Below, one piece after another: positions 4,849 through 56,294 of a DNA stretch of 64,000 nt. The DNA is from Streptomyces sparsogenes. GTDB taxonomy: Bacteria; Actinomycetota; Actinomycetes; Streptomycetales; Streptomycetaceae. The stretch covers positions 1-64,000 of the forward strand of contig NZ_MAXF01000028.1 in assembly GCF_001704635.1 (NCBI RefSeq). Reading direction: 5' to 3'. Under the pieces are notes generated by a model that had not been told where the DNA came from, searched no databases, and saw only the letters and a program-made list of their open reading frames with translations. Made by a program: the position numbers and the translations under genes. Each line of letters opens with the position of its first letter. Position 1 is the stretch's first letter.

Positions 4849-5791
4849 TCCGCAACTGCTTCGGATCCCGCTGCCAATCCTTCGCGACCTTCACATGCAG
4901 ATCGAGGAAGACCGGCGTACCCAGCAGCGCTTCAATGTGCTTGCGGGACTTCGTCCCGACCTCCTTCAGGCGCTTGCCCTTGGGCCCGATGATGATGCCC
5001 TTCTGGCTGGGGCGCTCGATGTAGAGGTTGGCGTGGACGTCGAGGAGGGGCTTGTCCGCGGGGCGGTCCTCGCGGGGGAGCATCTCCTCGACCACCACGG
5101 CGATGGAGTGCGGCAGCTCGTCCCGTACGCCCTCCAGCGCCGCCTCGCGGATCAGCTCGGCGACCATGACCTGCTCGGGCTCGTCCGTGAGGTCGCCCTC
5201 GGGGTAGAGCGCCGGGCCCTCGGGGAGCAGCGGGACGAGCAGGTCGGCGAGGAGGCCCACCTGGGCGCCGCCGGTGGCGGAGACGGGGACGATCTCGGCC
5301 CACTCGATGCCCAGCTCCTTGCCGAGCCGGTCCACGGCGATCAGCTGCTCGGCGAGCTGCTGGGAGTCGACCAGGTCGGTCTTGGTGACGATGGCGACCT
5401 TGGGGGTCTTCTTGATCCCGGCCAGCTCGCCCGCGATGAAGCGGTCGCCGGGGCCGAGCTTCTGGTCGGCGGGAAGGCAGAAGCCGATCACGTCGACCTC
5501 CGCCCAGGTGGTCCGCACGACGTCGTTCAGCCGCTCGCCGAGCAGGGTGCGCGGCTTGTGCAGGCCCGGGGTGTCGACGAGCACCAGCTGGGCGTCGGGG
5601 CGGTGCACGATGCCGCGCACGGTGTGGCGGGTGGTCTGCGGGCGGTTGGAGGTGATCGCGACCTTCGTCCCCACCAGTGCGTTGGTCAGGGTCGACTTGC
5701 CCGCGTTGGGGCGGCCGACGAAGCAGGCGAAGCCCGCGCGGTGCGGGGTCGCCCGCGACTCGGGCCGGGAGGGGGAGGTAGCGGCACTCAT
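4835..5791 (-). CDS. era: GTPase Era
   Basis: Era is an essential GTPase that binds the 3' end of 16S rRNA and supports 30S subunit maturation. The 318 residues fit the family length plus a short streptomycete N-terminal tail. GRPNAGKS at 26-33 is the P-loop, followed by DTPG, KTDL and a C-terminal KH domain with IIGPKGKRLKEVG. ATG 5791 (MSAATSPSRP) was chosen; an in-frame ATG three codons upstream is possible. It is the last gene of the phoH-ybeY-CBS-era block conserved in actinobacteria. The stop lies inside a 14-bp tandem repeat, so the extreme C terminus could vary between strains. Confidence 0.97.
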   Translation of the reverse strand: MSAATSPSRPESRATPHRAGFACFVGRPNAGKSTLTNALVGTKVAITSNRPQTTRHTVRGIVHRPDAQLVLVDTPGLHKPRTLLGERLNDVVRTTWAEVDVIGFCLPADQKLGPGDRFIAGELAGIKKTPKVAIVTKTDLVDSQQLAEQLIAVDRLGKELGIEWAEIVPVSATGGAQVGLLADLLVPLLPEGPALYPEGDLTDEPEQVMVAELIREAALEGVRDELPHSIAVVVEEMLPREDRPADKPLLDVHANLYIERPSQKGIIIGPKGKRLKEVGTKSRKHIEALLGTPVFLDLHVKVAKDWQRDPKQLRKLGF

Positions 5792-5850
5792 GCCGCCCAT
5801 TGTCCCCGATCCCCCGCCCCCCGCCGACACGCCCGGTGCGGTACGGGCCC

Positions 5851-6201
5851 TCAGGCCTGGACCGTGATGCGCGGCTCGCCGTCGGGGCCCGCCAGCAGCA
5901 CCGGGGTGCCCGGCCCGCCCAGGTCCCGTACGGCCGCGACGTCCTCGTCCGCGACGGCCTCCGCCTCGGTCACGACGGCCGCCGCCTCCAGGGACTTCGC
6001 CCCGCTGGCGACCGCCATCGCGACGGCGGTCCGCAGCGCGCTCAGCGGGAGCGAGGGGAGGGCGACGGTGCCGGCGACATAGGTGCGGCCGGTCTCGTCG
6101 CGTACGGCGGCGCCCTCGGGGACGCCGTTGCGGGCCCGCGCGGAGCGGGCAAGGGTGATGATCTTGCGGTCTTCGGGGTCCAGGGGTGCGGCTTCGCTCA
6201 T
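5851..6201 (-). CDS. cytidine deaminase-like protein lacking zinc ligands
   Basis: A 116-residue protein with the alternating strand/helix pattern and small size of the cytidine deaminase fold. It sits between era and the CBS/CNNM gene, as a conserved unnamed gene does in mycobacteria. It has no [HC]AE and no PCxxC motif and contains no cysteine, so the zinc-dependent deaminase activity is very unlikely. A structural or regulatory role beside Era is an inference. ATG 6201 was chosen because TATGCT ends 7 bases before it, which fits leaderless transcription; an ATG at 6213 lies inside that hexamer. Confidence 0.75.
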   Translation of the reverse strand: MSEAAPLDPEDRKIITLARSARARNGVPEGAAVRDETGRTYVAGTVALPSLPLSALRTAVAMAVASGAKSLEAAAVVTEAEAVADEDVAAVRDLGGPGTPVLLAGPDGEPRITVQA

Positions 6202-39717: not shown

Positions 39718-39727
39718 ACTCACACTG

Positions 39728-39800
<73 letters not shown>

Positions 39801-42972: not shown

Positions 42973-43003
42973 GAGAAGCGGGATCGGTGTGACTCGACTT
43001 CTG

Positions 43004-43076
43004 TGGAGCTAAGGAGAATTGAACTCCTGACCTCCTGCATGCCATGCAGGCGCTCTACCAACTGAGCTATAGCCCC
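43004..43076 (-). tRNA. tRNA-Ala (anticodon GGC), second copy
   Basis: 73 nt, identical to the copy at 39728 except that the anticodon stem is CCTGC/GCAGG, a compensating change of one base pair. The anticodon loop is ATGGCAT and CCA is not encoded. Confidence 0.95.
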
Positions 43077-44345: not shown

Positions 44346-46184
44346 TCAGCTCTTCGGGTCGTAGTCCTGGCCGAGGACCACCGTGATGTCCGCGTTCGAG
44401 GCGACCTTGCCCTTCCGCGCGGCGCCGGCGGCCAGCCCGAGCGTCTTGGCCACCTCCTTGGCCTGGGCGGCCTGCTTCGCGTCCGCGTACAGCACCTGGG
44501 AGGCCGCCTGCGGGGTGCCGCCCTGCTCGCTGGCGCCGACGACCGTGAAGCCGCCGTTGACCAGCGCGACCTGCGCCTCGCCCGCCGCGCCCCGCACCGA
44601 GCCCGCGTTCCGCACGCTGACGCGCGGCGCCGCGTCCTGGTCGGTGTTCTTGACCGCGCCGCCCAGGATGGTCCTGACCACCCGGTCGGTGGACCGCTCG
44701 CTGAGCGTCCCGTCCGGCTGGACGGGCAGCATGGTGGTGTCGTACGAGCCGTTCTTGGCCCGCTCGGCCAGCCGGGCCAGCGAGGCGCCGAGCTGCTGCT
44801 CGCTCAGCGACGGGTCCGGGATCTGGGCGAGCGACTCCACGGTGCTGGTGGCGCCGTCCGGATCGCTGGAGACCTCCTTCAGCGCCGCGTGCATGACCTG
44901 CCCGAAGCGGGCGAGCTGCTTGGTCTGCGCCTCGCCCTGCCCCCGGTAGGTGGCGTACGCGACGGCGGCCTCGCCGCTCAGCTCGCGCCCCTTGCCGCGC
45001 TCGACGAGCGGGCCGTCGCCCTTCGCGGCGCCCGGGACGGTGGCGTCGGCGTCCACGGTGATGCCGCCGACGAGCTGGACCAGGTTCTCCAGATACGGGG
45101 TGTCCAGCCGCCAGGTGCCCTGGATGTCGGCGCCCAGCAGGGTGCTCAGGGAGTCCCGGGTGGCGTCGGAGCCCTCGTCCACCACCGACTTGCCGAGCGT
45201 GGTGGAGCCGCCGTCCTCGGTGGACAGGGCGAGCGCGTTCGGCAGCAGGACGGTGGTGCCCTTCTTGGTGGTCTCGTTGTCGACCAGCAGGGCGGTGGAG
45301 GTGCGCCCGCCCTTGGTCTCGCGCAGGTTGACCACGATCACGTCGCGCTTCTGCGAGCCCCCGGCGGCGGCCGGGTCCTGCCCGTCGTCGGACAGGCCCG
45401 GCAGCTTGCCCGCGTACCAGAGGTAGCCGACCCCGCCGACGACGGCGAGGACCAGCACCACCACGAGCGCCACCAGGCGGTTGCGCCCCTTCCGCTTGCG
45501 CTCGTCGCGCCGCTCGGTGCGGGTCTCGGCGAACTTGAGCCAGTCGATGACGTCCTCGGAGTCCTCGTCGGGCTCCTCGACGAACGAGAACTGCTCGGTG
45601 CGGTAGTCCTCGCCGTCGGGCTGCTTGGCTGTCCGCGCGGACGGCACCGGGGATGGCTCCGTGGCCGGCTCTGCGGCCGGCTGCGCGGACGGCTCCGCGG
45701 GGCGTTCGGCGGGTCGTTCGGCGGGGCGGGGCCGCTCGTACGTCTCGTAGGGGCCCGCTTGCGCCGCGCCGGTGCGGTCGTACGGCGAGGTGCCCTGCGA
45801 AGAGGTGTCGTACGTGCCGGTGTCGTATGTGCCGGTGTCGTATGTGCCGGGGTCGTACGTCGCGGTGTCGTACCCGGAGCCGCCGTACGCAGAGGTGTCG
45901 TACGTCGTGCCCTCGTACATCGTGGTGTCGTACGCGGCCTGGTCGTAGCCCTGCTGCTGCGGGTCGTGCTGCTGCGGGTACTGCTGCCCGCCCGCGTACG
46001 GGTCGTAGCCGTAGCCGTCCTGCTGCTGCGGCTGCTGTGGCTGCTGCGACTGCCCCTGCGCGTACGGGTCGTAGGGCTGTGGCTGATACACCGGCCGGCC
46101 ATAGGCGTCGTAGCCGTAGATCTGCGGGTCCTGGGGATGCGGATCCCGCGCGTACGGGTCGTACGGGTCCTGTCCGTCGTTCAC
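44346..46184 (-). CDS. LytR-CpsA-Psr (LCP) family protein with LytR_C domain
   Basis: 612 residues. LCP enzymes attach anionic glycopolymers to peptidoglycan. A cytoplasmic Tyr/Asp/Gln-rich tail (about 1-215) with five-residue YDTGT repeats precedes one membrane span (VALVVVLVLAVVGGVGYLWY, about 234-253). The extracellular LCP domain follows, with conserved DVIVVNLRE and VQLVGGITVDAD, and a C-terminal LytR_C domain starts near 510. ATG 46184 is 10 bases from the nadD stop. The long repetitive N-terminal tail is unusual but streptomycete-like. Confidence 0.92.
   Translation of the reverse strand: MNDGQDPYDPYARDPHPQDPQIYGYDAYGRPVYQPQPYDPYAQGQSQQPQQPQQQDGYGYDPYAGGQQYPQQHDPQQQGYDQAAYDTTMYEGTTYDTSAYGGSGYDTATYDPGTYDTGTYDTGTYDTSSQGTSPYDRTGAAQAGPYETYERPRPAERPAERPAEPSAQPAAEPATEPSPVPSARTAKQPDGEDYRTEQFSFVEEPDEDSEDVIDWLKFAETRTERRDERKRKGRNRLVALVVVLVLAVVGGVGYLWYAGKLPGLSDDGQDPAAAGGSQKRDVIVVNLRETKGGRTSTALLVDNETTKKGTTVLLPNALALSTEDGGSTTLGKSVVDEGSDATRDSLSTLLGADIQGTWRLDTPYLENLVQLVGGITVDADATVPGAAKGDGPLVERGKGRELSGEAAVAYATYRGQGEAQTKQLARFGQVMHAALKEVSSDPDGATSTVESLAQIPDPSLSEQQLGASLARLAERAKNGSYDTTMLPVQPDGTLSERSTDRVVRTILGGAVKNTDQDAAPRVSVRNAGSVRGAAGEAQVALVNGGFTVVGASEQGGTPQAASQVLYADAKQAAQAKEVAKTLGLAAGAARKGKVASNADITVVLGQDYDPKS
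45805..45879. repeat. 15-bp tandem repeats in the LCP gene
   Basis: Five units of GTGTCGTAyGTGCCG-type sequence encode repeats of YDTGT in the cytoplasmic tail. Units two and three are identical. Confidence 0.85.
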
Positions 46185-47393: not shown

Positions 47394-48581
47394 ATGAGCG
47401 ACAGCGACACCTCGAGCGGCGGGGGCGGCGGTCCTGAGCGGGTGCCGGGGCGTGAGCGGCGCCGGTTCCCGGGGATCTCCTCGCGCGCGTACGAACACCC
47501 GGCGGACCGCTCGGCGCTGGTCGCGCTGCGCAAGCTGACCGGCTTCGACACCGTCTTCAAGGCGCTGAGCGGGCTGCTGCCCGAGCGGAGCCTGCGGCTG
47601 CTCTACCTGTCCGACTCGGTGCGGGTGAGCGACCGGCAGTTCGCGCACCTCAACGACATGCTGCGGGACGCCTGCTACATCCTGGACCTGGACAAGGTCC
47701 CCGCGATGTACGTCACCCAGGACCCCCGGCCGAACGCGATGTGCATCGGCATGGACGAGCCGATCATCGTCATGACGACCGGCCTGGTCGAGCTGCTCGA
47801 CGAGGAGGAGATGCGGGCGGTCGTCGGCCACGAGGTGGGCCACGCGCTGTCCGGGCACTCGGTCTACCGCACGATCCTGCTGTTCCTGACGAACCTCGCG
47901 CTGAAGGTCGCCTGGATCCCGCTCGGCAATGTCGCGGTGATGGCCGTGGTGACGGCGCTGCGCGAGTGGTTCCGTAAGTCGGAGCTGTCGGCGGACCGCG
48001 CCGGGCTGCTGGTCGGCCAGGACCTGAGGGCGTCGATGCGGGGGCTGATGAAGCTCGCGGGCGGCCACCACCTGCACGAGATGAACGTGGACGCCTTCCT
48101 GGAGCAGGCCGAGGAGTACGAGGCCGGGGGCGATCTGCGGGACTCCGTCCTCAAGATCCTTAACATGCTGCCGCGCAGCCACCCGTTCACCACCGTGCGC
48201 GCCGCCGAGCTGAAGAGGTGGGCCGCCGGCCGCGACTACCAGCGGATCATGGACGGTCACTACCCACGGCGCGACGAGGACAGGAACACCTCGGTCAGCG
48301 ACTCCTTCCGGGAGTCGGCGAACCACTACGCGGAGTCGGTGCGCGCCGGCAAGGACCCGCTGATGGCGTTCGTGCGGGATGTGGCGGGCGGCGCGGGGGA
48401 CCTGGGCAGCAAGCTGCGCGAGAAGTTCACCGGCGGGGGCGGCGCCGCGCCGTCCGACAGGGCCCGGGAGAAGTCCCAGTCCCAGGAGAAGTCACAGGAG
48501 AAGTCACAGGAGAAGCCCCGGGGAACGTCCCAGGACCCGTCCCAGCCGCCCCAGGGCGGCCCCGAGCCGGACCTTCCGTAA
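47394..48581 (+). CDS. M48 family zinc metalloprotease (HtpX-like)
   Basis: 395 residues. [13 protein letters not shown] gives the HExxH site (His146, Glu147, His150) and [10 protein letters not shown] the third ligand. Hydrophobic stretches after the motif suggest membrane association. M48 proteases act in membrane protein quality control. The C-terminal about 60 residues are Gly/Ser/Lys-rich with SQEK repeats (DNA repeats near 48470-48520) and look disordered. ATG 47394 follows a GAGGGGG stretch. No partner was seen downstream. Confidence 0.9.
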
Positions 48582-48605: not shown

Positions 48606-49685
48606 CTACGAGGGGGGCAGGTGGGGCAGGGCGGAGGGGGACAGCACGCCGCACAGGGATGCCTTGGGGCGGCCGATGCCGTACGGGTTGGTGCCGGGCG
48701 GCGCGTCGTCCTTGGTGCTCTGCCCGGCCAGCAGCGGCCGCAGATATCCGGCCGCGTTCGCGGCGCAGGCCTGCGGGCCGGCCAGCACGGAGGACTGCAC
48801 CAGCTCCAGGTGGTGGTCGCGCAGGTCGACACGGTCGAAGCGGAACCGCGTCTCGCGCCGCACGGTGAACAGCGAGGCGTGGTCCGTGCCGCCCTCATGG
48901 GGCCGCCGCACGGCGTAGACGAAGGTGTGGTCGGCGGTGACCTCGAGGGTCGAGGCGTTCCGCTCGGTGGCCGTCAGGGTGCCGTGGACCCGTACGGCAG
49001 GCATGGCCAGCGCCACCTCGGCGGGGTTGAAGCGGGTCAGCCAGCCGGTGGCCGCGTACCGCCCGTCGTCGACCGGGTGTTCGAAGCTGCGGTCGAACTG
49101 GTCGAGTTGGTCGGGGTCGAGCAGCAGCCGCAGCGGCCGCACTTCGCCGCCGGTGAGCACGTCCGGGTCGAGGGCCGACTTGACGAGGTATTCCTTGGCG
49201 GTGGTGAGCGCGGCCATCACCTGGCTCTCGGAGAAGCTGTGGGTGCGCCGCACACCGGGCAGGGTGACGCCCTCGGCGCCGGTGGCGAAGGAACTGGCCG
49301 GGCTGTTCTCGAACAGGGCCGCGGGCTCCCCGCCGGGCACCTCGCCGCGCGGCGCCAGCGGCACCACGCTGCTGCGCAGCGGCTCGGCGGTCTGCGGCTG
49401 GGGGGTCTCGTAGGGGTGCCGTACGCCCATGTAGACGGCGACGGCGAAGGCGAGGGCGATCAGCAGCACCAGGACGACGGCCTGGCGCGAGGCCCCCGCC
49501 CGGGCCCAGGCGTGCCGGCTGCGCACCGCCCTGGCGTGTTCGCCCATGCGCTCCTGGGCGGAGAATTCCTGGAGCCGGGCAGCACGGACGAACGACTCGT
49601 CGAAAACGACGGAGCGATACTCGTCGTCGCCATCTCCCGGGACGCCCTCGGGGGTCCCCTCAGGAGGGTTTCCACGCCCGGTCAT
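48606..49685 (-). CDS. membrane protein with N-terminal VVFDESFVRAA motif
   Basis: 359 residues. An N-terminal cytoplasmic part (DDEYRSVVFDESFVRAARLQ, then QERM) precedes one span (QAVVLVLLIALAFAVAVYMG, about 68-87) and a large extracytoplasmic domain of about 260 residues with two Cys near the C terminus (CAAN, LCGV). ATG 49685 is supported by TACTCT 6 bases upstream. The N-terminal motif recurs in the next gene (49745). I do not recognise the extracytoplasmic domain. Confidence 0.85.
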   Translation of the reverse strand: MTGRGNPPEGTPEGVPGDGDDEYRSVVFDESFVRAARLQEFSAQERMGEHARAVRSRHAWARAGASRQAVVLVLLIALAFAVAVYMGVRHPYETPQPQTAEPLRSSVVPLAPRGEVPGGEPAALFENSPASSFATGAEGVTLPGVRRTHSFSESQVMAALTTAKEYLVKSALDPDVLTGGEVRPLRLLLDPDQLDQFDRSFEHPVDDGRYAATGWLTRFNPAEVALAMPAVRVHGTLTATERNASTLEVTADHTFVYAVRRPHEGGTDHASLFTVRRETRFRFDRVDLRDHHLELVQSSVLAGPQACAANAAGYLRPLLAGQSTKDDAPPGTNPYGIGRPKASLCGVLSPSALPHLPPS

Positions 49686-49691
49686 ACCTCA

Positions 49692-49697
49692 AGAGTA
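49692..49697 (-). promoter_or_regulatory. -10 hexamer TACTCT, leaderless start
   Basis: TACTCT on the minus strand, 6 bases before ATG 49685. The same hexamer and spacing occur before the related gene at 50398. Confidence 0.55.
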
Positions 49698-49744
49698 GGT
49701 CGCGGGAGGCGCCGGTAAACGCGGTGATACTCCACAACTTCCGT

Positions 49745-50398
49745 TCACGGGGAGCTGTGCGCAGCCGAGGCCGCGGGCGCGTCAGAGCCGGCGGACACCG
49801 GGGGCACGGACGGAACGGCGCCCGGGCGCTCGGTGGGTGTGGCGTCGACACCGCTGGTGGCCGGTGGTGGGGCCGGGTCCTGGCGGTTGCCCGAGGCGCC
49901 GCGGTAGACGGCAGTGAAGGCCAGCGCGACCACCCCTATGCCCATCAGGACGGCCAGCAGCCAGGCCACGGGGCGGTGCCAGCGGGCATGACCCCGGTAG
50001 GGGCGCCCGGCGCTGCCGTACCGCCCGTATGGTCCGTACGGGCCATAGGGCCCGTCGGCGTCCCGGTCGGGGCCGTATCCGCCGGCCGGGTAGGTGTCGG
50101 CGTCGGCGTCATAGTGGTCGTATCCGAACTCGGCGTCGCCGTCGGGGCCGTAGCCGTCCTCGTAGAGCTCGTCCTCGGGCGGGACGCCCGCCCTGCGGCG
50201 GCGGGACGCCTCGGCCTCGGCGCGGGCCTGGGCGGCGGCCAGCATCCGCTCGATGGCGGTGGGTTCGTGGATCGCGGCGGACCGTACGAAGTCCTCGTCG
50301 AAGACCACGGCGGCGAACTCGTCGTTCGCTTCCCCGTGGCTGCGGTCGTCGGGCTCGTCACCGTCCGGGAACGGCTTGCCTCCCACGTCGTCCGGCAC
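49745..50398 (-). CDS. membrane protein with N-terminal VVFDEDFVRSA motif
   Basis: 217 residues, starting at GTG 50398. NDEFAAVVFDEDFVRSAAIH and IERM parallel the neighbour at 48606. A Tyr/Gly/Asp/Pro-rich linker (GPYGPYGPYGRYG) precedes one span (VAWLLAVLMGIGVVALAFTA, about 150-170) and a short Pro/Ser/Ala-rich end. The neighbour's large external domain is absent. TACTCT ends 6 bases before the GTG; a TTG at 50425 is a weaker start. Probably a diverged partner or paralogue of the neighbour. Confidence 0.8.
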   Translation of the reverse strand: MPDDVGGKPFPDGDEPDDRSHGEANDEFAAVVFDEDFVRSAAIHEPTAIERMLAAAQARAEAEASRRRRAGVPPEDELYEDGYGPDGDAEFGYDHYDADADTYPAGGYGPDRDADGPYGPYGPYGRYGSAGRPYRGHARWHRPVAWLLAVLMGIGVVALAFTAVYRGASGNRQDPAPPPATSGVDATPTERPGAVPSVPPVSAGSDAPAASAAHSSP

Positions 50399-50404
50399 CC
50401 ATTC

Positions 50405-50410
50405 AGAGTA
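50405..50410 (-). promoter_or_regulatory. -10 hexamer TACTCT, leaderless start
   Basis: TACTCT on the minus strand, 6 bases before GTG 50398. Confidence 0.55.
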
Positions 50411-50529
50411 GACCTGCCGGGTCAATTTGGGCAGGGTGAAATGCTATTCGGGGGAATGGCGGACGGGAGCGGACGGCGGAAACACCACCCGACCGGCGTA
50501 CCCCCCGACCGACCGTCACATCCCCCGAA

Positions 50530-50627
50530 CGGGTGACACCGGACGGGGGACTCCAAACGGGTGACGTCGGACGGGTGACGTCGGGCGGGTGACGTCGGGC
50601 GGGTCATGCCGGACGGGGGACCCCGCT
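50530..50627. repeat. seven 14-bp tandem repeats ending at the proA stop
   Basis: Units of CGGGTGACGTCGGr type run from 50530 to 50627 without interruption; those at 50572-50585 and 50586-50599 are identical and the outer ones degenerate. The last unit reaches the first base of the proA stop codon (50627-50629). Confidence 0.85.
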
Positions 50628-51925
50628 CAGCGGATGTGGCCGTCCCCGGTGAGGATGTACTTGGTGGAGGTCAGCTCGGGCAGGCCCATCGGGCCGCGCG
50701 CGTGCAGCTTCTGCGTGGAGATGCCGATCTCGGCGCCAAAGCCGAACTGGCCGCCGTCCGTGAACCGGGTGGAGGCGTTGACCGCGACCGTCGTCGAGTC
50801 CACCAGCTGGGTGAAGCGGCGGGCGGCCGCCTGGGAGGTGGTGACGATCGCCTCGGTGTGGCCGGAGGACCACAGCCGGATGTGGGCCACCGCGGCGTCC
50901 AGGGAGTCCACGACCGCGGCCGCGATGTCGTACGAGAGGTACTCGGTCTCCCAGTCGTCCACGACCGCCGGGACCACCGTGGCCTTGGAGCCCTCCGACA
51001 GGGCCAGCACCCGCTCGTCGGCGTGCACCGTGACCCCGGCCTCGGCCAGCGCGTCCAGCGCGCGCGGCAGGAACACCGGCGCGATGTCCTGGTGCACCAG
51101 CAGCGTCTCCGCGGCGTTGCACACGCTGGGCCGCTGCGCCTTGGAGTTCACCAGGATCTCGACGGCCATGTCGAGGTCCGCCTGCGCGTCAACGTACACA
51201 TGGCAGTTGCCGGTGCCGGTCTCGATCACCGGGACCGTCGACTCCTGGACGACGGTACGGATCAGTGAGGCGCCTCCGCGCGGGATCAGCACGTCGACCA
51301 GGCCGCGGGCGCGCATCAGCTCGGCCACCGACTCCCGGCTCTCGCCCGGCACCAACTGCACCGCGTCGGCGGGCAGTCCGGCCCCGCCGACGGCGTCGCG
51401 CAGGACCTTCACCAGCGCGGTGTTGGACTGGTACGCGGAGGACGAGCCGCGCAGCAGGACCGCGTTGCCCGACTTCAGGCACAGCGCGGCGGCGTCCACC
51501 GTCACGTTCGGCCGGGCCTCGTAGATGATGCCGACGACGCCGAGCGGCACCCGCACCTGGCGCAGGTCGATCCCATTGGGCAGGGTCGAGCCGCGCACCA
51601 CCTCGCCGACCGGGTCGGGCAGCGCGACCACGTCCCGCACGTCCGAGGCGATGGCCCGCACCCGCTCGGGGGTGAGGGTGAGGCGGTCGACGATCGCCTC
51701 GCTGGTGCCGGCCTCGCGGGCCCGCGCCACGTCGAGCGCGTTGGCCTCGACGATCTCCTTGGTCCGCACCTCGAGCGCGTCGGCCATCGCGAGCAGCGCG
51801 TCGTCCTTGACGGCGCGCGGCAGCGGGGCGAGGTCGGCGGCCGCGGCCCGGGCCCGGTAGGCGGCCTGGAGGACCGGCGACTTCGGCCAGGGGTCGGTGA
51901 GGGGCGAGGTGGGTGCGCTGCTCAT
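50627..51925 (-). CDS. proA: glutamate-5-semialdehyde dehydrogenase
   Basis: ProA (gamma-glutamyl phosphate reductase) makes glutamate semialdehyde from the ProB product with NADPH, for proline synthesis. The 432 residues contain [30 protein letters not shown] and [13 protein letters not shown] with the catalytic Cys. ATG 51925 is supported by TAGGCT 7 bases upstream. proB lies upstream with a small unknown gene between, whereas in many bacteria the two are adjacent. Confidence 0.97.
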
Positions 51926-54182: not shown

Positions 54183-56294
54183 GTGCCCTCTGCCGGAATC
54201 GCCCCCCGCCGGGCCGTACAGCTGGCGGCGCTGCTCGCGATGCTGGTGTTCTTCACCACACAGCTCATCGGCGCCGTCCTCCCGAACGTGCCCCTCCTCA
54301 TCGCCGCGTCGGCGGGTGGCCTCGCGCTCGATCTGTATCTCCAGCACCAGCAACCGGGACTGCTGTCGCTGCTGAGCAAGGTCCGCTTCGACGTCACGGT
54401 GCGCCAGCTGTTCCGGGACATGCTCATCGTGGTGGGCCTGCTGCGCATAGAGGGCATCGACCCGCTGCACGAGCAGGCGCCGCTCACCGTCGGGCTGCTG
54501 CTCTTCTACGTGACGCACTTCGCCTGCCAGGCGGTGGCCGTCCTGGTCCGCCGCCGCCGCCAGCTGCCGTTCGTCACCCGCAACATCGACACCTCGGCGC
54601 TGCGGCTGAGCGACGCCCCGCCGCGGCTGTTCGCCCGCCAGCACGGCCGCCGGCTGCTGCGCCTGTCCGCCCCGATCACCGCGGGTCTGCTGGTCACCGC
54701 GGGCACCACGAACGGCTGGTGGGGCGGGATCGGCGTGGCCGTCGGCCTGCTGGTCGCCGTCGTCGGCACCGTCCACCTGGGCACCTGGCTGCTGCCGGGC
54801 AAGCGTGTGGTGAGCGAGGCCAAGGCGCTGGAGTGGCTGGACAAGTGGCTGGCCGAGTACCGGCCGACCGTGGGCATGTACTTCTCCGGCGGCACCACCT
54901 CGGCGTACCAGGCGAACATGTGGCTCTCCACGCTCGCCGCGCTCGAGGGCAACCCGATCATCGTGCTCCGCGAGCGCTTCATGGTGCAGAAGATCGACGC
55001 GACGGACGTGCCGATCGTGTGCCTGCCGAAGGTCGCGCACCTGATGCGGCTGGAGCACTCCACGCTCAAGGTGCTGCTGCACCCGGCGAACTCCGGCAAG
55101 ACCTCGCAGGTGCTGCGCATCCCGTCGATCAAGCACGCCTTCATCAACCACGGCGAGAGCGACAAGCTCTCCAGCTGCAACCCGTACGCCAAGGCGTACG
55201 ACGAGGTGTGGGTCGCGGGACCGGCGGCGCGGGAGCGCTACCAGCTCGCCGACATCGGCGTCGAGGACAAGGACGTCGTCGAGGTCGGCCGCCCGCAGCT
55301 GGCCCCGATCCGCCCCTACGCGGCCGCGTCCACCGGCGCGCTCGGCGGCGCGGGCGGGGAAGACTTCACCACCGTGCTGTACGCGCCGACCTGGGAGGGC
55401 TGGGACGGCAACCCGGGCAACACCTCGGTCATCCTGGCGGGCGAGAACATCGTCCGCGAGCTGCTCGCCGACCCCAAGGTGCGGCTCCTGTACAAGCCGC
55501 ACCCGATGACCGGCTCGGTCGACCCGCGCGCCGGCCGCGCCGACGAGCGCATCAGGGCGATGATCACCGAGGCGAACACCAAGCGCGGGGGCGCCCGGCC
55601 CGGCGCGGAGGCCGCCGCCGAGCTGGCCCGACGCACCGAGGAGCTCAACCGCCTCACCAGCACCTCCTTCCGCGCCAGCGCGGATGAAATCGAGCGCATG
55701 AAGCTCCAGGGCGCCCCGGACGGGGACCGCGCCGCGGCGGTCACGGCGGCCATCACGGCCTGGGAGAACGCCTACTGGGCGTCGATCCCGGTGTGGGAGC
55801 ACCAGATCATCACCGGCCCGCGGCCGGCCCTGTTCGCCTGCTTCAACCAGTCGGACCTGCTGATCAGCGATGTCTCCAGCGTGGTCTCGGACTATCTGAC
55901 CAGCGAGAAGCCGTACGCGGTGGCGAACACCAGCGGTCTGTCCGAGGCCGAGTTCAAGGCGGGCTTCCCGACGGTGCGCGCCGCGACCATCCTCACCCCG
56001 GACGCCCACGGCGTCCCCGCCCTCCTCGAAGCGGTCCGCGACCCGGAGAAGGACACGAACGTGGCCGCCCGCGCCGAGCTGAAGGTGCACCTGCTCGGCC
56101 CGTCCGACCCGCCGTCGCTGGTGCGCTTCGACCGGGCCGCCCAGGCCCTGTGCGCCAAGGCCGACGCCCGCCGGGCCCGGATGGCCACCCGCCTGTCGGA
56201 CGAGATCCCCGCGCAGCGCGAGGCCAGGGACGCCGCCGAGGAGGCGGAGCTGGAGGCCGGCTCGCCCGAGACGGAGGAGACGGCGGCGGTCTGA
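54183..56294 (+). CDS. CDP-glycerol:glycerophosphotransferase-like membrane protein
   Basis: 703 residues. An N-terminal membrane region has several spans (about 10-55, 70-130 and 165-210), followed by a cytoplasmic GT-B-type transferase domain. YAPTWEGW, LLYKPHPM and LISDVSSVVSDYL are signatures of the TagB/TagF CDP-glycerol glycerophosphotransferase family that builds wall teichoic-acid-like polymers. The C-terminal about 60 residues are acidic. GTG 54183 has AGGAG 8 bases upstream. It is divergent from proB and convergent with obg, separating proB from obg. Exact acceptor and polymer unknown. Confidence 0.88.
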   Translation: MPSAGIAPRRAVQLAALLAMLVFFTTQLIGAVLPNVPLLIAASAGGLALDLYLQHQQPGLLSLLSKVRFDVTVRQLFRDMLIVVGLLRIEGIDPLHEQAPLTVGLLLFYVTHFACQAVAVLVRRRRQLPFVTRNIDTSALRLSDAPPRLFARQHGRRLLRLSAPITAGLLVTAGTTNGWWGGIGVAVGLLVAVVGTVHLGTWLLPGKRVVSEAKALEWLDKWLAEYRPTVGMYFSGGTTSAYQANMWLSTLAALEGNPIIVLRERFMVQKIDATDVPIVCLPKVAHLMRLEHSTLKVLLHPANSGKTSQVLRIPSIKHAFINHGESDKLSSCNPYAKAYDEVWVAGPAARERYQLADIGVEDKDVVEVGRPQLAPIRPYAAASTGALGGAGGEDFTTVLYAPTWEGWDGNPGNTSVILAGENIVRELLADPKVRLLYKPHPMTGSVDPRAGRADERIRAMITEANTKRGGARPGAEAAAELARRTEELNRLTSTSFRASADEIERMKLQGAPDGDRAAAVTAAITAWENAYWASIPVWEHQIITGPRPALFACFNQSDLLISDVSSVVSDYLTSEKPYAVANTSGLSEAEFKAGFPTVRAATILTPDAHGVPALLEAVRDPEKDTNVAARAELKVHLLGPSDPPSLVRFDRAAQALCAKADARRARMATRLSDEIPAQREARDAAEEAELEAGSPETEETAAV

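Follow-up and report, generated by a model that had tools for sequence, protein, structure and literature searches.

A shared N-terminal core in two adjacent Streptomyces membrane proteins, possibly a cytoplasmic docking segment

Two adjacent genes in a 64,000-nucleotide stretch of Streptomyces sparsogenes DNA (contig NZ_MAXF01000028.1, positions 1 to 64,000; the whole stretch is called the window here) encode single-span membrane proteins of the SCO2583 and SCO2584 families, and both proteins begin with a common conserved core of about 30 residues. The same core recurs in other proteins, ahead of different outer parts. Our preferred reading, held tentatively and a little below an even chance, is that the two proteins are tandem paralogues whose core serves for docking in the cytoplasm, that one of them has lost an NTF2-like outer domain, and that the pair probably has a role in the envelope or the spore wall. 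Coordinates are collected in Table 1, and genomes, contigs, loci, families and one genus are cited by our own handles (G, C, L, f and g with a number) where a distinction is needed.

The shared core and its conservation

The original prediction, made from the letters of the window, held that both proteins start with a VVFDExFVRxA-type segment, and protein comparison bears this out. BLASTP matches SCO2583 and SCO2584 across the core with 17 of 31 residues identical (E 7e-08) and gives a second, weaker match across the span (E 0.004), while the NCBIfam model NF052257 (Sc_trio_core) exceeds its cut-off of 30 in both window proteins (51.4 and 59.9 bits). The core reads DEYRSVVFDESFVRAARLQEFSAQERM in SCO2583 (residues 21-47) and DEFAAVVFDEDFVRSAAIHEPTAIERM in SCO2584 (residues 26-52). 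Across the 8.9 Mb genome containing the window, NF052257 rises over its cut-off only twice, both times in this pair. Each whole protein also passes the threshold of its own family, NF052260 for SCO2583 and NF052259 for SCO2584, the latter labelled "spore wall biosynthesis protein" by NCBIfam. The cut-off of 70 for the SGM_3592 family (NF052258) is not reached by the two proteins (22.2 and 36.4 bits), and a Pfam scan returned no match for either of them, PF13845 Septum_form included.

As a rough pattern, the core of some 30 residues can be written D-x-F-x-x-[LV]-x-[LF]-D-E-x-F-V-R-x-A-x-x-x-E-x-[STP]-A-x-x-R, and its E, A and R are invariant among 23 divergent segments aligned. Over 69 paired Streptomyces loci, the mean pairwise difference of SCO2583 is 0.109 in the core versus 0.348 in the ectodomain, and that of SCO2584 is 0.184 in the core versus 0.419 in the rest; the neighbouring comparison genes give 0.119 (proA) and 0.157 (M48). 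The core thus varies 2.3-3.2 times less between loci than the remainder of each protein, a ratio to be read with the fact that cores were extracted by the motif pattern, which favours conservation at the pattern's own positions.

Joint occurrence and gene order

The pair occurs jointly well beyond close relatives, and the condition named with the original prediction for refuting it, a restriction to close relatives, does not hold. SCO2584 is over cut-off in all 150 genomes of the window's family, which span 17 genera, and SCO2583 in 18 of 19 genomes tested from the 16 non-Streptomyces genera of the family. By coordinate comparison, in which the position of SCO2584 was not listed for G729 and G745, the two genes are neighbours or share a cluster in 16 of the 19, which represent 15 of the 16 genera. 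The window's SCO2583 has its nearest relatives in Streptomyces.

From high to low coordinates, the order in the window is proB, proA, SCO2584, SCO2583, M48 (convergent), nadD, LCP-LytR_C and rsfS, where the names proA, proB, nadD and rsfS were assigned by eye and that of proA is presumed from gene order. Two sets of loci, 100 in all and every one selected for having SCO2583, were compared with this arrangement. All 20 Streptomyces loci of the first set contain the four genes in the order proA-2584-2583 with M48 convergent, and 75 of the 80 named loci show the order proA-2584-2583-M48; of the remaining five, two start after SCO2584 at a contig end, one is without an SCO2584 call and two are without an M48 call. 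Across the 80 named loci the pattern finds SCO2584 in 70 and protein comparison in 77, the three missing cases being L190 and L204, which are cut by a contig end, and L200, where the gene was not called. The SCO2584 orthologue at L200:2295-2933 departs from the rest in its C-terminal part, which fails to align, possibly through a frameshift. A natural fusion of SCO2584 and SCO2583 in G041 (L168, one of the 20 loci of the first set; C197:1448900-1453900, 643 residues in one frame) was set aside as a probable assembly artefact, because some 450 bases from it the opposite strand holds the motif again at exactly the same score, a pattern that an inverted misassembly would produce.

The chromosomal slot itself extends further. 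In f49 and f50, other families of the order, an SCO2583 relative is found in 8 of 15 genomes, none over cut-off, and the slot proA-X-M48-nadD is kept in the sister family f50. Between proA and M48-nadD, seven f50 genomes (L148, L285-L290) carry a short core-plus-span protein, with an LCP gene beside nadD in six of them, and G502 (L278) carries a full SCO2583-like gene. Another full SCO2583-like gene follows proA in G501 (L281), at a contig end, and four more genomes (L144-L147) have the short core-plus-span protein directly after proA. The inner segments of five short and four full proteins that were compared are 66-81% identical.

Reuse of the core in other proteins

In a genus sample, all 101 genomes hold NF052257 over cut-off and at least two matches: two in 52 genomes, three in 26 and four in 23. 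Of 147 genomes in an order sample, 145 match at E 0.001 and 136 over cut-off; in a class sample the corresponding figures are 81 and 77 of 394, and the 81 matches comprise 40 from the window's genus, 34 from f18 and seven from f22, f29, f31, f34 and f38. A phylum sample yielded the core in 4 of 149 genomes, all of the window's genus. No NF052257 match was obtained in 14 control genomes at these thresholds (E 0.001 or cut-off), and relaxing the threshold to E 10 brought up matches in 7 of the 14, never over cut-off. With a broader profile (A1) built from the 23 segments, matches at E 0.01 came from 11 of 62 genomes of the class, two being weak. Matches in f26 and f20 (E 0.003 and 0.006) have no span and look like chance.

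The architecture was examined in 39 proteins from 45 non-Streptomyces stretches, with starts chosen by rule; the tabulated spans omit the f50 locus L124, which has two stops, and the near-duplicates L119, L120, L122, L123 and L128. In 34 of the 39, the core lies at about residues 5-56 and is followed by one hydrophobic span, and the other five, two of them weak matches, have no span. Four kinds of outer part follow core and span in these proteins. Bare tail anchors, with 0-4 residues beyond the best span window, occur in f22, f29, f31, f32, f34, f38 and f50. PF13845 Septum_form is present in all three f18 core proteins scanned (190.2, 50.3 and 43.3 bits), and an SCO2583-type ectodomain follows the core in f50 and in non-Streptomyces genera of the window's family. 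At L138 and L139 (about 4965-5870), both from f18, a protein of core, span and Septum_form stands after ilvC- and serA-like genes; these two names, as well as glnA and serS below, were assigned by eye. In f29, L143:4959-5987 encodes core, span and a matrixin-like metalloprotease (PF00413, 25.5 bits against a cut-off of 24). Weak matches to SepX/GlpR (20.9 bits against a cut-off of 150, L318) and to an anti-sigma model of NCBIfam were not taken as homology.

Within Streptomyces the core has two further homes, SGM_3592 and an SCO2199-like protein, neither of which was found in the window's genome. SGM_3592 (NF052258), the third member of the "trio", lies near a serS-like gene and has the same core as the pair (NF052257 71.2 bits in L133). 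It differs from them in having no span in all three cases examined, ending, as judged by eye, just before the point at which the span would begin; the NF052257 search found no third trio member in the window's genome. Additionally, L130 and L131 (about 4974-5234) encode a tail-anchored protein of 85-86 residues next to a glnA-like gene. It contains the second half of the core, and its tail closely matches SCO2199 of S. coelicolor. SCO2199 is one of 20 predicted tail-anchored proteins of that species (PMC3087755), and the accessible text of that paper describes it without connection to SCO2583 or SCO2584.

Spans, ectodomain and origin of the pair

The original prediction of one span in each protein, with a large outer part in one and almost none in the other, agrees with the sequences. 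Each window protein has a single hydrophobic span with more lysine and arginine (K/R) on its N-terminal side. SCO2583 continues for about 270 residues beyond it, and SCO2584 for about 50, of which the last 48 are 65% P/A/S/T.

The AlphaFold2 model of SCO2583, built from 45 sequences, has a mean predicted local distance difference test score (pLDDT) of 79.8, with residues 1-29 and 46-61 below 50 and the blocks between 101 and 300 mostly at about 90 or more, apart from dips to 82 and 77. In this model the ectodomain consists of helices followed by long strands. VIA-align placed it among NTF2-like folds, CaMKII hubs and VirB8 at Z 6.3-7.4, with many tied and none at 8 or above, a range that the program flags as possibly just a common arrangement. 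Foldseek gave LinA as its best and sole match below 0.001 (E 8.3e-04, TM-score 0.31 by target length). The NTF2-like domains of VirB8, CaMKII hubs and ARC6-PARC6 may resemble the predicted ectodomain in fold; the Z-scores within the common-arrangement range, and the lack of any PDB match to SCO2583 by sequence up to E 10, set them apart from it. VirB8 is likewise a one-span protein with its NTF2-like domain outside. For SCO2583, "NTF2-like" is accordingly a reading of the modelled fold and not a family membership. In the model of SCO2584 (mean pLDDT 56.8) only the span is confident, with helices near the core at 35-40 and 48-69, and a PDB search with the core sequence returned only a chance-level match (E 1.1). 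A flexible core with short helices could be compatible with a docking segment, low model confidence being no proof of one.

Relatives of SCO2583 from elsewhere in the family and from f50 bear on the ancestry of the pair. In L317 and L321 one chain combines a core resembling that of SGM_3592 (62.2 and 55.2 bits, cut-off 70) with a basic stretch, a span and an ectodomain of the SCO2583 type (NF052260 104.1 and 99.8 bits, cut-off 205), and L270 similarly joins an SGM_3592-like core, at 35 bits also below 70, to the SCO2583 ectodomain. These chains fit one old architecture, probably followed by duplication in tandem and by loss of the outer domain more than once. Most likely, the ancestor would have had a cytoplasmic core, a basic stretch, one span and an NTF2-like domain outside; SCO2584 would have retained the inner part and lost the outer domain, a direction of change that we infer. 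The row of SCO2583-like, SCO2584, SCO2583-like and SCO2583 genes at G728:C113:63830-67674 is in keeping with this history.

Start signals of the two genes

Both genes have TACTCT exactly 6 bases before the start codon, as originally described; the hexamer gives no support, however, for a link between the two. It is a generic -10 box of the leaderless type, and farther upstream the two promoters are unlike each other. In bacteria, S. coelicolor included, leaderless genes are marked by a TANNNT box ~12 bases ahead of the start (PMC3160421), and leaderless mRNAs arise from 21.0% of the primary start sites of S. coelicolor (PMC4895711). Among 53 called window genes, with starts taken from a simple gene caller, TANNNT stands 6, 7 and 8 bases before 4, 3 and 1 genes (eight different genes) and at other offsets up to 49 at most once each. 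The exact TACTCT occurs three times on both strands of the window, two of these being the pair.

The box is conserved in position more than in letters. In the window and 20 loci (21 sources), the start pattern of SCO2584 was found in 14, all with TANNNT (13 at 6 bases, one at 7), and that of SCO2583 in 20, with TANNNT at 6 bases in 16. The larger sets of 70 SCO2584 and 80 SCO2583 orthologues (Table 1) contain 41 exact TACTCT each, and variants such as TACGCT, TAGTCT, TAATCT and TACCCT keep TA...T and the distance constant. The sole SCO2584 exception (L225) is without a usable start; the eight SCO2583 exceptions are six with GGGAGAAGTC, likely a ribosome site, one with CACTCT, and L211, where the true start was not reached. 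The start of SCO2584 was corrected from the TTG at 50425 of the open reading frame listing to the conserved GTG at 50398, because in 69 of 70 orthologues the spacing of 6 bases to the -10 box holds for the start homologous to it. Since TACTCT is conserved as a TANNNT box such as is found at leaderless starts generally, it tells how each gene starts and not that the two are linked. Both genes are therefore predicted to be of leaderless type, each probably transcribed from its own TANNNT promoter.

A shared regulon, with TACTCT as a regulator binding site or a duplicated promoter, would account for the same hexamer at the same distance. We rejected it as very improbable: the general occurrence of such boxes at leaderless starts, the variation of the hexamer in orthologues down to TA...T and its spacing, and the differing upstream halves all speak against it.

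Table 1. Features of the pair and its neighbours in the window
Feature	Position	Strand	Remarks
SCO2583-family membrane protein	48606..49685	-	359 residues, ATG start; NF052260 586.1 bits, cut-off 205, residues 1-354
SCO2584-family protein	49745..50398	-	217 residues, GTG start; NF052259 268.9 bits, cut-off 80
NF052257 core of SCO2583, N-terminal	49524..49625	-	56.3 bits, genome search
NF052257 core of SCO2584, N-terminal	50219..50323	-	59.8 bits, genome search
SCO2583 membrane span, residues 70-88	49422..49478	-	hydropathy 2.9; K/R 4 before, 1 after; model helix 62-89
SCO2584 membrane span, residues 146-164	49907..49963	-	hydropathy 2.42; K/R 4 before, 2 after; model helix 141-169
SCO2583 predicted NTF2-like ectodomain, residues ~137-302	48780..49277	-	AlphaFold2 pLDDT mostly ~90+; VIA-align Z 6.3-7.4
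-10 box TACTCT of SCO2583, 6 bases before ATG	49692..49697	-	TAC[TC]CT there in 72/80 orthologues
-10 box TACTCT of SCO2584, 6 bases before GTG	50405..50410	-	TANNNT there in 69/70 orthologues
-35-like TTTACC, 16 bases upstream of SCO2583 -10	49714..49719	-	inside conserved gcGTTTACC; by eye
Conserved CTGCCC(AAA), 18 bases upstream of SCO2584 -10	50429..50434	-	possible -35; by eye
M48 metallopeptidase neighbour, convergent	47394..48581	+	PF01435 89.8 bits; gene order kept
Presumed proA, upstream neighbour	50627..51925	-	Aldedh family; gene order kept
LCP-LytR_C protein, third called gene from SCO2583	44346..46184	-	PF03816 and PF13399

Neighbourhood and the link to wall synthesis

By gene order, the LCP-LytR_C gene presumably stands at the place of PdtA (SCO2578). 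With the NCBIfam name of SCO2584 and the kept neighbourhood, this PdtA-type gene gives the pair its likeness to the spore wall synthesizing complex, a circumstantial link to wall synthesis. The complex is described in PMC4416010, and PdtA is a reported member of it (PMC11481543); neither SCO2583 nor SCO2584 is named as a member in the accessible text of these two papers.

Lying between proB and obg but read from the other strand, 54183-56294 (+) encodes a 703-residue protein with a short PF04464 (CDP-glycerol glycerophosphotransferase) match of 27.1 bits, which may be a second wall-type gene near the pair. Two tRNA-Ala genes with the same GGC anticodon lie about 3.2 kb apart at 39727-39800 and 43003-43076 (-).

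Weighing the explanations

The proposal of a duplicated cytoplasmic docking motif in two neighbouring genes holds as far as the shared conserved segment and the adjacency are concerned, and finds no support in its use of the start signals as a bond between them. In the reading that we tentatively favour, the core would be a docking segment, flexible alone and with short helices. By binding a single partner in the cytoplasm, it would bring various outer modules together at one spot on the membrane's inner face, which in Streptomyces would most likely be where cell wall or spore wall is made. The stronger conservation of the core than of the remainder of each protein, its recurrence ahead of changing outer parts, the single-chain relatives, the slot proteins of f50 and the wall context all speak for this reading. 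Since the core is found in many unlinked single genes, a common third partner fits better than a pairing of these two proteins only. That pairing, in which SCO2583 and SCO2584 would bind each other through the core as a two-component assembly, draws on their adjacency and joint retention, seen in 15 of the family's 16 other genera, and on the kept order in 75 of 80 named loci, themselves chosen for SCO2583. We consider it distinctly unlikely, given that many f18 genomes have a single core protein, that G013 has cores at three separate places, that G741 keeps only one of the two genes, and that co-variation specific to the core is missing. Co-evolution confined to the core was examined in two runs. 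The first, limited to 19 pairs because the gene caller had trimmed starts, gave a partial r of 0.38 (5 of 999 permutations as high); the second, with 69 pairs, gave a weak core-core co-variation beyond species distance of 0.12 (10 of 499 permutations) and no core specificity, and this candidate was dropped. The latter value is near the 0.09 of the SCO2583 core against the rest of SCO2584 (50 of 499) and far under the 0.47 and 0.49 of the comparisons with the SCO2583 ectodomain (0 of 499).

Alternatively, the segment may be a relic of the tandem duplication that serves as a membrane-insertion or topology element instead of a docking site, which its N-terminal place ahead of the span in most proteins examined, and the continuation of the pair's similarity across the span, would suit. 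This appears improbable: in the two window proteins, 16 and 86 residues separate the end of the core from the best span window, the core is kept in the spanless SGM_3592 (three of three), and the C-terminal part alone is reported to have sufficed for targeting of three S. coelicolor tail anchors (PMC3087755). A regulatory site read by an enzyme, such as a Ser/Thr kinase substrate at the S/T of E-x-S/T-A or a protease tag, seems quite improbable, because 5 of the 23 aligned segments, four of them f18 and one f31, have P at that position and still keep the rest of the core; S or T does stand there in both proteins at all 69 paired Streptomyces loci, and PkaI is reported to phosphorylate the spore wall proteins MreC and PBP2 (PMC4416010).

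Several observations weigh against docking to a shared partner at the wall. Besides the weak core-core co-variation, G741, which belongs to another genus and is 98% complete, retains SCO2584 (C1:4381234-4381740) and has no SCO2583 match beyond the SCO2584 core itself, and in f49 G488 an SCO2583 relative between proB and nadD-LCP has the ectodomain and no visible core. In the f50 genus g141, the SCO2583-like and SCO2584-like cores are only 22-40% identical, and a common partner is therefore not obvious there. At E 0.001, the core has no match in 313 of the 394 class genomes, and other core proteins adjoin serA-, glnA- or serS-like genes, not wall genes. The S. venezuelae orthologue of PdtA, vnz_11555, is reported to be deletable without detectable developmental effect (PMC11481543). 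SCO2199 is predicted with its N-terminus outside (PMC3087755), at odds with a cytoplasmic core for this member; the lysine and arginine count (3 before the span, 1 after) and the shared core suggest an N-terminus inside. A literature search made mostly without subscription journals found no paper naming SCO2583 or SCO2584, and one behind the NCBIfam name likely exists; for SCO2199, SGM_3592 and others the search returned PMC3087755 only.

A bolder form of the docking proposal takes the core to be a docking code of actinomycetes in general, addressed to one hub at the inner membrane and joined to NTF2-like, Septum_form, metalloprotease or bare tail-anchor modules. In Streptomyces genomes that have it, the spanless SGM_3592 would be a soluble competitor that limits the number of docked membrane modules, and SCO2584, lacking an outer domain, would be a placeholder that tunes the density of SCO2583; we regard this as unlikely.

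Significance

The pair and its motif are already catalogued in NCBIfam, a mechanism is not: NF052260, NF052259 and NF052257 match the two proteins far over their cut-offs, and the models give no account of what the proteins do. NF052257 is also over cut-off in proteins of other families with other outer parts. SCO2584 is present in every one of the 150 family genomes and SCO2583 in 18 of 19 outside Streptomyces, yet no paper in the literature searched names either tag. If the core does dock to a shared partner, a single pull-down would place several uncharacterised actinomycete envelope proteins, Septum_form proteins included, on one hub.

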